From Gordonia sp. UBA7599 (lineage in GTDB: Bacteria > Actinomycetota > Actinomycetes > Mycobacteriales > Mycobacteriaceae), in contig DLKD01000069.1 of NCBI GenBank assembly GCA_002477755.1, positions 525 to 34,448 on the forward strand: a stretch of 33,924 nucleotides of DNA, read 5' to 3'. How positions within the stretch are numbered: the first letter of the stretch is position 1; every line of letters starts with the position of its first letter. Both the position numbers and the translations under genes were made by a program. Under the pieces are notes generated by a model. It was given only the letters and a program-made list of their open reading frames with translations. It was not told the origin of the DNA and did no database searches. Shown here one piece after another: positions 7,779-16,552 of the stretch.

Positions 7779-8009
7779 CTAGCTGTCGGCGGTGGCCTTC
7801 TTCTCGCGCTTGCCGTAGCGCTTCTCGAAGCGCGCGACGCGGCCGCCGGTGTCGAGAATCTTCTGCTTGCCCGTGTAGAACGGGTGGCACTGCGAGCAGA
7901 CTTCGACGTTGATCCGGCCGTCTTTCTTGGTGCTGCGGGTCTCGAACGTGTTGCCGCAACCACACACGACGGTGGTGGCCACGTACTCCGGGTGGATGTC
8001 CTTCTTCAT
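7779..8009 (-). CDS. rpmE: 50S ribosomal protein L31 (zinc-binding form)
   Basis: A 76-residue bL31. The four zinc cysteines are kept: C16 and C18 (VCGCGN) and C38 and C41 ([13 protein letters not shown]). This is the C+ form, which the cell normally uses under zinc sufficiency. ATG at 8009 is preceded by GAAAGGGA. The order rpmE-prfA-prmC is the usual one, but the gene that normally lies immediately upstream, rho, is displaced 8.6 kb away by the gltB-like operon. Confidence 0.97.
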
Positions 8010-8167
8010 GGTGTCCCTTTCGTGGTCGCCGGGTCACCCGCGCGGATTGCCTCGGGTGTGAACCGGAACCGGACTTGATTCGACGCTCCATTGTGCCACG
8101 ACCGGGCCACCGGCCCGAAATCGTGGCTGCCGCCGCCTGCCCCCGACCTGGTAGTTAGGGACACCTT

Positions 8168-8196
8168 TTTAAAGTTAGCATTGGCTAAGCTACGCT
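8168..8196 (+). promoter_or_regulatory. Candidate core promoter of the gltB-like operon
   Basis: TTTAAA (8168-8173) and TACGCT (8191-8196) are separated by 17 nt, a plausible sigma-A promoter. Transcription would start near 8203, giving a leader of about 70 nt with AGGAG (8263-8267) before the TTG start. The spacer is filled by the iron-box-like sequence, so a bound repressor would block polymerase directly. Confidence 0.5.
8175..8193 (+). promoter_or_regulatory. IdeR/DtxR-like iron box
   Basis: TTAGCATTGGCTAAGCTAC matches the IdeR/DtxR consensus TTAGGTTAGGCTAACCTAA at 14 of 19 positions by eye, including the central GGCTAA. It contains the inverted repeat TTAGC-ATTG-GCTAA minus one base of overlap. 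A second, weaker match (about 10 of 19) begins with TTAGG at 8155, twenty bases upstream, so two repressor dimers could bind in tandem. IdeR-type regulators bind such boxes with ferrous iron and repress; binding here is inference. Confidence 0.5.
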
Positions 8197-8273
8197 GTTT
8201 TCAGTGTCGCTCCACCGTCGTAGCGCTACCGGTGTCAGAGATATTCCCGGAGGACGACGGACAGGAGACGGGG

Positions 8274-13637
<5,364 letters not shown>

Positions 13638-13641
13638 ACCG

Positions 13642-15558
13642 ATGGAATTGCCCCACATCCCCTCCGACGTGCCGTTCACCGGCGAGCAGAAGGCCTGGCT
13701 GGCCGGATTCCTCGCCGGGTTGAACACGCGCATAGCCATGCCTGCCGGGCTGGCCCCCGCGACCACGGCACCGGCTGCCCCGCAGGCTGCCGAGCAGCCC
13801 GAGGCCGATGCACCCCCGGCGGGTCCGGGAAAGCTCCTCATCCTCTACGGCACCCAGACGGGCAATGCAGAGTGGATCGCCGACCAGGCCAAGGACAAGG
13901 CCGCCGAACTCGGTTTCGACGTCACTCTGACCGACATGGGCGAGGCGACCACCGACCTGTTGACCGCCGCGCAGAACCTGCTCGTCGTCGTCTCCACCTA
14001 CGGCGAGGGCGAGATGCCCGACGACGCCGAGGACTTCTGGCTCGAGGTCGCCGGCGACTCCGCACCCCGCCTCGAGGACTTGCGGTACGCGGTGTGCGGA
14101 CTGGGCGACTCGATCTACGACGGCTTCTGCCAGGCGGCCAAGAACTTCGACGGCCGCCTCCACGAACTAGGCGCGACGCGGGTCGTCGAGCGGGTCGAGT
14201 GCGACGTCGACTTCCAGAAGCCCGCCGATGACTGGATCCCCGGCGCACTCGAGGCGCTGACCACCTCGCCCGCCTCCCCGGCGGTCGCCGAGACCGCCGT
14301 CGACGAGATCGCCGCCGAACCCGTGGTCATCGACGAACCCGTGGTCATCGACGAGCCGCTAGTCGCCGAAGAACCGGTCATCGCCGAACCCGTCGTCGAA
14401 CCCGTGCCGGCGGTCGAGCCGAAGCCGGAGAAGGCGGTCGCGTGGGGCCGCAAGAACCCCTACCCGGCCACCGTCGTCGCCAACACCGTCCTGTCCGGCC
14501 CGACGTCGGCCAAAGAGGTGCGCCACTGCGTGATCTCCCTCGGCGACAGCGGGATCGCCTATGAGCCCGGCGACGGGCTCTCGATCCAGCCCATCAACGA
14601 CACGGTGTTGGTGGATCGCGTGCTGGCGCGCCTCGGTGCGACCGGCGAGGAGATGATCACCGACCGGAAGACCCAACGCACCCTGCGCGACGCGCTCACC
14701 CACCACTACGAGATAGCCATGCCGTCGAAGTACCTGGTCGACTACGTCGCGGCCCGCACCGGCGACGCCGAGTTGACCCACCTCGCGGCGACCGGGGACC
14801 ACGAATCCCTCGATGCCTGGCTGTGGGGGCGCGACGTGCTCGACGTCCTCGACGTCGACCCGTCGCTGACGATCACACCCGAGGAGCTCCTCGGGGAGCT
14901 GCGGCCGTTGGCCCACCGGGTGTACTCGATCTCCTCGTCGCCGAACACCCATGCGGGAACCGTCCATATCACGATGGCCGTGGTCCGCTACCGTGCCTTC
15001 GACCGCGACCGCGGCGGCGTGTGTTCCACCTACCTCGCCGACCGGGTCGACGACGGGACCAAGGTTTCGGTGTTCATCACGCCCAACCGGTCCTTCCGTC
15101 TCCCCGACGACGACGCGCCGGTCATCATGATCGGACCTGGCACCGGTGTGGCACCGTTCCGGAGCTTCCTGCACGAGCGGGCCCACCGCGGCGCGACCGG
15201 CGACAACTGGCTGTTCTTCGGTGACCAGCACCGCGAATCGGACTATGCCTACGCCGACGAGCTCGAGCAGTTCCAAACCGACGGACTGCTGACACGCCTG
15301 GACCTCGCGTTCTCACGCGACCAGGCGCACAAGGTTTACGTCCAGGACCGGATGCGCGAACAGGGCGCGGCGCTGTACGAATGGCTGCAGCGGGGCGCGT
15401 ACGTCTACGTGTGCGGCGACGCCACGCGGATGGCGCACGACGTGAATACCGCCCTGCTGGAGATCATCGCCAAGGAGGGCGGCCTCGACGACGCCGCGGC
15501 CACGCACTACCTCGAGGAACTCAAGAGCAACAAGCGCTACCTGCGGGACGTGTACTGA
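13642..15558 (+). CDS. CysJ-like NADPH diflavin reductase
   Basis: A 638-residue flavoprotein built like the sulfite reductase alpha subunit and cytochrome P450 reductase. It takes hydride from NADPH to FAD, passes it to FMN, and donates single electrons. An N-terminal FTGEQKAWLAGFLAGLN segment is typical of CysJ relatives. The flavodoxin domain (about 55-205) has LYGTQTGNAEWIADQ and VVVSTYGEGEMPDDA. A Pro/Glu/Val-rich linker with repeated VVIDEP (about 215-265) precedes the FAD domain (RVYSISSSP, GVCSTYLADR) and NADPH domain (IGPGTGVAPFRSF, VYVCGDATRMAHDV). It ends RYLRDVY, like CysJ, with the C-terminal aromatic that stacks on FAD. No sulfite reductase heme subunit is nearby. Its 4-nt spacing after the gltB-like gene and 1-nt spacing before the HemS-like gene point to one or both as its electron acceptor. 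Confidence 0.9.
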   Translation: MELPHIPSDVPFTGEQKAWLAGFLAGLNTRIAMPAGLAPATTAPAAPQAAEQPEADAPPAGPGKLLILYGTQTGNAEWIADQAKDKAAELGFDVTLTDMGEATTDLLTAAQNLLVVVSTYGEGEMPDDAEDFWLEVAGDSAPRLEDLRYAVCGLGDSIYDGFCQAAKNFDGRLHELGATRVVERVECDVDFQKPADDWIPGALEALTTSPASPAVAETAVDEIAAEPVVIDEPVVIDEPLVAEEPVIAEPVVEPVPAVEPKPEKAVAWGRKNPYPATVVANTVLSGPTSAKEVRHCVISLGDSGIAYEPGDGLSIQPINDTVLVDRVLARLGATGEEMITDRKTQRTLRDALTHHYEIAMPSKYLVDYVAARTGDAELTHLAATGDHESLDAWLWGRDVLDVLDVDPSLTITPEELLGELRPLAHRVYSISSSPNTHAGTVHITMAVVRYRAFDRDRGGVCSTYLADRVDDGTKVSVFITPNRSFRLPDDDAPVIMIGPGTGVAPFRSFLHERAHRGATGDNWLFFGDQHRESDYAYADELEQFQTDGLLTRLDLAFSRDQAHKVYVQDRMREQGAALYEWLQRGAYVYVCGDATRMAHDVNTALLEIIAKEGGLDDAAATHYLEELKSNKRYLRDVY

Positions 15559-15559
15559 G

Positions 15560-16552
15560 ATGACCGAGCGCAATCCCAACCCCACCGCCGGCGACGACCG
15601 CTGCCCGTGCCGCCGATGCCCGCGCAACCGCCGCGGTGTCAGCGATCTCGAAGCCTTCCTACGCGCCCCCGGGTTCTCCGGATCGGTCGTGGACGGCCCG
15701 ATCGACACGGTCATGGCCGCACTGCCCCAGCTCGCCAACGTCGTCGGTGTCACCGCGGCCGGACCCGTCATCACCAATGACGTCGGGACCCACCACCCTC
15801 CCGAAACCATCGACGGGCCACTGCGCAGCGTCGGCGACGGACTGGTCCTGCGGATCAACCCGGCCGCACTGGGCACCGTCCTAGTGACCGATCCATCCGC
15901 GTCGGCCCCGCCGACTGTCCGGGTCTTCGACACCGAGGGCAACTCGGTGCACGTCACCTACCTCATCGAGGGTTCGGACCGGCTGGCGTTCGAGTCGCTG
16001 AGCCTCTCGCGCTCGGCGGACGTGGACATCCTCGACGACCTGGCCCTACAGCGCCAGCAGGCGCAGCCGACCGCCGCACCGGAGCCCACACCGGAGTTCG
16101 CCGACGATCAGATCGGCCTGATCGACTCGATCCTCGTCGACGGCGGTGTCGCACGCGGCGCCGCGCTCGCCGCGACGGCCCGATCAGGGTTTTCACGCGT
16201 ATCGGCGCGGCGGGTGATCGACGCACTCTCGTACGCGTCCACGATCGCCTTGCCGATGACGACCGCCACGGCCGCGCCCGGGTGCCTGCAGATCCACCAC
16301 GACGTCCTCACCGGGGCGCGCGAACATCACGGCTCGATGGTGATCGCCTCGGATGCGGCACGCACGATGATCAACTTCAACTCGGTCGCACAATGCTGGG
16401 TGACCACGGTCGACGGCGCATGGGGGCCGACGAGTGCGATCGAGGTCTACGACCGGCACGGACGGTGCAGCTTCGTGGCATCGCAGACGGGCCCGGTGAA
16501 CCGCTGGATCTACGACGCGTGGGAGCAACTGATCGCCGACCTCGTCGACTGA
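15560..16552 (+). CDS. Divergent HemS/ChuS/HmuS-like heme utilisation protein
   Basis: A 330-residue protein with two halves that both align by eye to the HemS/ChuS family of cytoplasmic heme carriers and degraders. In the first half, DGLVLRINPAALGTVLV, then VRVFDTEGNSVHVTYL and SDRLAFESL, mirror the HemS blocks LDLRLFL, IQFFDHQGDALHKVYV and the following aromatic helix. In the second half, APGCLQIHHDVLTGA, AQCWVTTVDG, TSAIEVYDRHGR and the closing AWEQLIADL mirror GCVQIFTG, AESWITRKP, TSLELFAADG and the end of HemS. A cysteine cluster CPCRRCP (C15, C17, C20) at the N-terminus is not typical of the family and might bind metal. The ATG is 1 nt after the diflavin reductase stop, so the reductase could supply electrons for heme opening. 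Assignment is by remote similarity; the heme ligand is not identified with certainty. Confidence 0.65.
   Translation: MTERNPNPTAGDDRCPCRRCPRNRRGVSDLEAFLRAPGFSGSVVDGPIDTVMAALPQLANVVGVTAAGPVITNDVGTHHPPETIDGPLRSVGDGLVLRINPAALGTVLVTDPSASAPPTVRVFDTEGNSVHVTYLIEGSDRLAFESLSLSRSADVDILDDLALQRQQAQPTAAPEPTPEFADDQIGLIDSILVDGGVARGAALAATARSGFSRVSARRVIDALSYASTIALPMTTATAAPGCLQIHHDVLTGAREHHGSMVIASDAARTMINFNSVAQCWVTTVDGAWGPTSAIEVYDRHGRCSFVASQTGPVNRWIYDAWEQLIADLVD

Follow-up and report, generated by a model that had tools for sequence, protein, structure and literature searches.

Which reaction does a glutamate synthase large subunit serve when it is encoded without an adjacent GltD, but in one operon with a diflavin reductase and a HemS-like protein? 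This question is raised by a 33,924-nt stretch of DNA from Gordonia sp. UBA7599 (contig DLKD01000069.1 of assembly GCA_002477755.1; hereafter the window), whose plus strand carries genes for a GltB-like protein, which we term GltB*, a CysJ-type diflavin reductase and a HemS-like protein, with intergenic gaps of 4 nt and then 1 nt. An earlier, sequence-only reading had described these three genes, their spacing and an upstream 14/19 match to the IdeR box, all of which were borne out by our open reading frame, Pfam and box analyses. It had also proposed that the operon is an iron-limitation module, and comparative sequence evidence from two phyla supports this idea. An iron-regulated, GltD-independent glutamate synthase is the best-supported reading of this evidence, with a changed substrate of GltB* as its strongest rival. 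We put the probability that the operon encodes an NADPH-dependent glutamate synthase for iron limitation, in which the diflavin reductase replaces GltD, at roughly 0.6. The features concerned are the following (window coordinates).

8175..8193, unstranded: IdeR/DtxR-like box, 14/19 (the overlapping register 8170-8188 scores 13/19)
8263..8267, plus strand: Shine-Dalgarno-like AGGAG, read from the sequence, preceding the likely start of GltB*
8274..13637, plus strand: GltB*, a divergent glutamate synthase large subunit, with its likely TTG start at 8274 (longest open reading frame 8091-13637)
8334-8336, plus strand: codon of the GltB* catalytic Cys
11802..11834, plus strand: altered iron-sulfur loop C-x5-C-x3-C of GltB* (P0001 residues 1238, 1244 and 1248)
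12876..13508, plus strand: C-terminal stretch conserved in GltB*, with 45 columns invariant among 16 sequences
13642..15558, plus strand: CysJ-type diflavin reductase (flavodoxin ~13840-14214, FAD 14449-15033, NADPH 15127-15447)
15560..16552, plus strand: HemS-like protein lacking the heme-ligand histidine, from Pfam and alignment
15602..15619, plus strand: HemS-like protein, N-terminal motif with three cysteines (CPCRRC)

GltB* (P0001) combines the Pfam domains GATase_2, Glu_syn_central, Glu_synthase and GXGXG in one large subunit. Its most likely start is the TTG at 8274 behind the AGGAG at 8263-8267, and most relatives have a similarly short leader ahead of the catalytic Cys. In a tree with 20 canonical GltB sequences, GltB* forms a single clade with a support of 0.944 and a stem of 1.67 substitutions per site. 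The clade comprises 86 GltB* rows, in which no fewer than four genomes appear twice and from which broken or truncated copies had been removed. The iron-sulfur loop reads C-x5-C-x3-C in 86/86 GltB* rows versus C-x5-C-x4-C in 20/20 canonical sequences, so that GltB* does not match the canonical cluster motif. Of the 521 columns that are 95% conserved in canonical GltB, GltB* has the same residue in 302. The glutaminase motifs are retained (catalytic Cys, HRG, HNGE and SD-D), as are the QGAKPGEGGQLP segment, the Arg following it and SPPPHHD-YSIEDLAQLI, which we take to be 2-oxoglutarate ligands. Further changes specific to GltB* are scattered across all domains, and the protein is also altered beside the loop of Met479 of Azospirillum (placed by alignment), named in a passage of a review as a possible electron relay in glutamate synthase (PMC8097209). 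The conserved C-terminal stretch lies mostly beyond the canonical GltB match, which stops at residue 1615; the C-terminal extension comprises ~200 residues.

We compared an alignment of the C-terminal part of GltB* with the genome contigs of 84,980 species, which yielded 255 matching stretches, of which the best 80 were kept. GltB* occurs in Gordonia, Rhodococcus, Tsukamurella, mycobacteria, Rhizobiales, Rhodobacterales and Methylobacillus. The reductase gene lies directly downstream of GltB* and on the same strand in 80/80 named loci from two phyla. The tree distances of the two proteins are correlated with an r of 0.89 over 76/86 loci (ten were lost in trimming; 0/999 permutations), a value that shared ancestry alone also raises. 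No gltD match was obtained at E 1e-3 in 101 loci, 98 of which were matched by a control gltB query. At canonical gltB, gltD was present in 19/19 complete loci fetched and next to the window genome's own partial gltB. Since reductase and GltB* are paired in every named locus without a gltD match, our data support the first reading that had been offered from the sequence, namely that the diflavin reductase stands in GltD's place. A search of 24 genomes, 22 of them with GltB*, revealed canonical GltB in all 24. An extra GltB-GltD pair (L174, L175 and L176), with a GltD 33-34% identical to that of E. coli, occurs in some genomes of Gordonia and Rhodococcus; several genomes therefore hold three GltB-type genes.

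The reductase consists of Flavodoxin_1, FAD_binding_1 and NAD_binding_1 domains and thus shares the flavodoxin-FAD-NADPH architecture of the sulfite reductase flavoprotein CysJ, of which a solved structure is matched at 425 bits. Unlike CysJ, it stays below the NCBIfam cysJ cut-off (599.2 versus 668.15 bits), although it passes that of the looser PRK06214 model. Moreover, none of 12 genomes reached the cut-off for the NADPH-type CysI (756.55 bits): 11 have 150 bits or less and Methylobacillus has 636. Judging from these scores, the CysJ-like protein lacks an evident sulfite reductase partner in 11 genomes, and we rejected sulfite reduction as its role. In the public records examined, the first gene is annotated as 'glutamate synthase-related protein' or gltB and the second as 'sulfite reductase (flavoprotein) subunit alpha' or cysJ, names that hide the GltB*-reductase system. 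Flavodoxin-less paralogues of the reductase are found near the operon in Gordonia asplenii and G. effusa (L057 3949-5223 and L058 264-1490) and in a further Gordonia (L027 3732-4916). Two other Gordonia loci carry a flavodoxin-less FAD/NADPH reductase and a HemS-like gene beside rho without GltB* (L028 10703-12957 and L029 5054-7352); the box-like sites near these are weak, with 11/19 and 12/19.

To what extent is the operon controlled by iron? The box at 8175-8193 agrees in 14/19 positions with TTAGGTTAGSCTAACCTAA, which we take to be the IdeR/DtxR consensus. This is the top score in the whole window; when the 250 nt upstream were shuffled, 1/200 shuffles reached it (p 0.005). The iron-dependent repressor family PF01325 is matched twice in the window genome. 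No sigma-70-type promoter met a consensus scan of 7950-8400, so that the promoter described earlier around the box stays putative. In 44/46 actinobacterial loci (the exceptions are L064 and L068), the 250 nt 5' of the catalytic Cys codon contain the best IdeR box of the whole locus, ties included, as compared to 3/36 proteobacterial controls. This set left out the truncated L083 and L121 as well as L024-L033 and L038-L042; the loci among the latter two groups that hold GltB* pass in 12/12 cases, several of them duplicating named loci. Tested against dinucleotide shuffles, the boxes of 28 loci gave p<=0.01 in 25 and p<=0.05 in 27. In Rhizobiales (Rhizobium, Agrobacterium, Shinella and relatives), TGA-N9-TCA occurs within 400 nt upstream in 22/26 loci, with a mean of 1.6 and a maximum of 6 in 200 shuffles; its occurrence in 10/12 Rhizobiales representatives was matched by 0/500 shuffles. 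A passage of PMC8822346 proposes this motif for RirA and places it in 5/10 RirA chromatin immunoprecipitation peaks. Fur and Irr boxes gave no convincing signal in the loci scanned. Our scans thus predict iron-responsive repression of the GltB* operon, through IdeR-type motifs in Actinobacteria and RirA-type motifs in Rhizobiales.

Several neighborhoods also contain iron-related genes. Genes for an AraC regulator, a siderophore receptor, an iron-siderophore transporter and a siderophore-interacting protein come after the trio on a plasmid of Ketogulonicigenium vulgare. The third gene of this trio scores 99.3 bits to the HemS-like profile (hhalign probability 99.1) and 14.8 to Pfam HemS, under the cut-off of 24. 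The Methylobacillus pair sits among a sigma-70 region-2 factor, which we call FecI-like because FecR adjoins it, a TonB receptor and an efflux system. A TonB receptor is encoded downstream of the pair in a Rhodobacterales metagenome-assembled genome, and a Fur-family gene ~4 kb downstream in Agrobacterium. After the Methylobacillus pair, L109 12636-13280 shows a weak, below-cut-off match to DUF4198; according to a passage of PMC3751524, iron limitation strongly induces two DUF4198 genes in Caulobacter. In the window, the operon is flanked upstream by an rpmE-like gene on the minus strand and downstream by rho; an L31-Actinobacteria ribosomal protein leader (Rfam RF03158, window 8024-8072) lies 5' of rpmE, divergent from the operon.

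The HemS-like protein matches Pfam HemS at 46.8 bits (cut-off 24) and ChuX_HutX at 30.2 (cut-off 25), its HemS alignment covers nearly the whole protein (97.0 bits), and an AlphaFold2 model has a mean predicted local distance difference test score (pLDDT) of 81.7. It resembles the heme-handling proteins HemS, ChuS and PhuS in this nearly full-length match. It differs from them in its operon and in its residues: where HemS has a His opening its C-terminal half, presumably the axial heme ligand, only 1/50 aligned rows has a His (five or more genomes are represented twice). Cys303 and His131 are present in 50/50 rows, Cys279 in 43/50, and three closely spaced N-terminal Cys in 45/50. We considered a four-cysteine metal site, but claim no cluster type because the spacing of the cysteines varies. 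L028 and L029 lack the N-terminal motif along with GltB*, but such joint loss is not general, as L057 and L058 have GltB* without the motif. The gene is also patchy: a HemS-like match is present in 30/80 GltB*-reductase loci and missing in 50/80, one of which (L071) ends inside the reductase. The three genes are therefore not always conserved together, as the sequence-only reading would have required of its module; the inconstancy concerns the HemS-like gene and spares the pair. In Rhodococcus jostii, R. opacus, R. koreensis and R. tibetensis the third gene is a short flavodoxin-like gene instead (L067 12395-12922; also L074, L075, L080 and L121; checked by Pfam for R. jostii only), which in the R. 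jostii/opacus group fits flavin-fed electron transfer.

GltB* is distributed patchily. A draw from the phylum contained it in 4/396 genomes (three of the genus Gordonia, the fourth a 50-residue match), the class of Methylobacillus in 4/369 and the family of Agrobacterium in 4/151, each including the centre genome. Nine plasmid records carry GltB*, four of them from Ketogulonicigenium, and the one Ketogulonicigenium plasmid examined was typed as conjugative. Within the family of the window genome, 36 of 201 genomes have the C-terminal stretch of GltB* and 22 the HemS-like profile. Of these 22, 18 also have GltB*, although in one of them, G111, the match scores 19.9 bits, lies on a different contig and is probably due to chance. 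The other four, L028, L029, L033 (a reductase end and a HemS-like gene) and L043 (fragments), appear to derive from the operon or to be what is left of it. Among 20 fetched loci, all three genes are open and adjacent in 15, and GltB* is split over two frames in L030. Decayed or interrupted copies (L043 8522-9664, L033 4713-6408 and L030 5571-10167) suggest repeated loss.

Several observations weigh against an iron-limitation glutamate synthase. In 83 columns, GltB* and canonical GltB are each conserved yet different. Residues of the FMN and cluster domain are among those altered, with D to T in GGTGA and, in VDG-KTG, D to S and K to Q; such substitutions could mean altered chemistry. All three cluster cysteines remain, with changed spacing, so that GltB* is probably not iron-free and may still need a cluster. 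The term 'iron-sparing' used in the sequence-only reading would hence probably not amount to iron-free. On the regulatory side, the box scores 14/19 in the window and just 12/19 in some relatives, that of L085 is not significant against shuffles, TGA-N9-TCA is loose and also present upstream in 4/9 other proteobacterial loci, and Fur box scores in Methylobacillus are not outstanding. Furthermore, the position of the operon between rpmE and rho, in the window as in most Gordonia loci, is away from iron genes, and there are no annotated iron-uptake neighbors at the Shinella, Neorhizobium and Tsukamurella plasmid copies, the last of which has a 14/19 IdeR box.

One alternative is that GltB* has left glutamate synthesis and, as a glutamine-dependent FMN enzyme, reductively aminates another keto acid needed under iron limitation, e.g. 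a siderophore precursor. The 83 group-specific substitutions, several of which fall in the FMN and cluster domain, would be in line with this, as would the stem of 1.67 substitutions per site, the conserved C-terminal extension, the siderophore uptake genes adjoining the trio in Ketogulonicigenium and the canonical GltB in 22/22 sampled GltB* genomes. However, the QGAKPGEGGQLP segment, the next Arg and SPPPHHD-YSIEDLAQLI, presumably 2-oxoglutarate ligands, are kept. No constant biosynthetic partner is seen either, as no cluster of neighbors other than the reductase and the HemS-like gene is common to more than 23/81 loci. We consider a changed substrate unlikely, though clearly less so than the two alternatives below.

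That the reductase might power heme opening by the HemS-like protein for iron release, with GltB* as a companion consumer of the same reductant, was the second reading offered earlier. The HemS and ChuX_HutX matches of the HemS-like protein and the Gordonia loci L028 and L029, in which a flavodoxin-less reductase and a HemS-like gene persist without GltB*, speak in favor of this reading. It does not sit well with a His at the heme-ligand position in just one of 50 rows and with the 50 of 80 pairs that have no HemS-like match. As the HemS-like protein lacks this His and is optional, heme ring opening is unlikely, and we rejected a heme oxygenase as the main explanation; iron release from heme appears improbable to us. 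Sulfite reductase flavoproteins also reduce free flavins and ferric complexes. The reductase could thus mobilize iron as a ferric or flavin reductase, with GltB* kept for another reason and the genes merely co-regulated, to which the FNR-only paralogues near the operon in three Gordonia genomes and the siderophore uptake neighbors could be added. Yet a free reductase needs no such partner, and the strict pairing with GltB* in two phyla and the matched trees make this the least probable of the three.

An iron-limitation glutamate synthase could work as follows. In the presence of iron, Fe-IdeR would repress the operon and ordinary GltBD would make glutamate. GltBD contains one [3Fe-4S] and two [4Fe-4S] clusters per protomer, as a passage of PMC8097209 states, and hence 11 Fe. 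When iron is scarce, the operon would be derepressed. Electrons would then pass from NADPH to FAD and to the flavodoxin-type FMN within the reductase, and from there, presumably through the altered iron-sulfur loop, to GltB*, on whose changed surface or C-terminal extension the reductase may dock. GltB* would hydrolyze glutamine, channel the ammonia to 2-oxoglutarate and reduce the iminoglutarate to glutamate, and would need no more than one cluster as against the three of GltBD. The HemS-like protein might be a lineage-specific accessory, i.e. an adaptor, an assembly factor or a heme- or metal-responsive modulator, rather than a heme oxygenase.

How does this system compare to known ones? With NADPH-dependent GltBD, GltB* shares the order of large-subunit domains, the glutaminase residues and the 2-oxoglutarate segment. 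In contrast to GltBD, it has no adjacent GltD, a diflavin reductase as its partner, an iron-sulfur loop shorter by one residue, a C-terminal extension of ~200 residues and predicted iron repression. The ferredoxin-dependent glutamate synthase of cyanobacteria and plastids is likewise a large subunit without GltD that uses a small electron carrier, whereas GltB* comes with its own NADPH diflavin reductase. The alignment shows no ferredoxin-loop insertion between GEGGE and KQ-ASGRFG of GltB*, where we assume this loop of the synthase domain to lie; most canonical GltB are in fact longer in this region than GltB*. GltB* also scores 700.7 bits against the ferredoxin-dependent enzyme versus 735-787 bits against GltB structures. 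With no ferredoxin loop and a reductase of its own, we rejected a ferredoxin-type identity for GltB*. As in the iron-sparing swap of ferredoxin for flavodoxin, a flavin carrier would replace iron-sulfur clusters under iron limitation. Unlike in that swap, the whole NADPH entry subunit would be exchanged and the acceptor subunit would be a dedicated one.

Nitrogen assimilation under iron shortage has been put down to glutamate dehydrogenase or to lower demand. Canonical GltB drops in iron-limited Caulobacter, according to a passage of PMC3751524, and in strain CPTF when metals induce iron starvation, according to one of PMC9938188. Glutamate synthase is further a predicted target of a staphylococcal iron-sparing RNA, for which a passage of PMC9410917 reports no significant effect on mRNA stability. 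Among the open PMC papers returned by our searches we recognized none describing the GltB*-reductase pair or the trio, and the passages at hand of PMC9409073 and PMC2559838 contain nothing on a GltB* system. It seems to us evenly balanced whether the operon adds another class to the GltD-, ferredoxin- and fused NADH-dependent glutamate synthases. This class would be of an NADPH-diflavin-reductase type, a spare for times of starvation that moved between Actinobacteria and Proteobacteria, came independently under IdeR, RirA and siderophore-locus control and recruited a HemS-fold protein from heme handling as an accessory subunit. If the proposed glutamate synthase is real, it would offer enzymologists a natural large subunit with a rebuilt electron entry route, and a flavin-fed spare enzyme under unrelated iron controls would be a direct and testable answer to how nitrogen is assimilated when iron is short.

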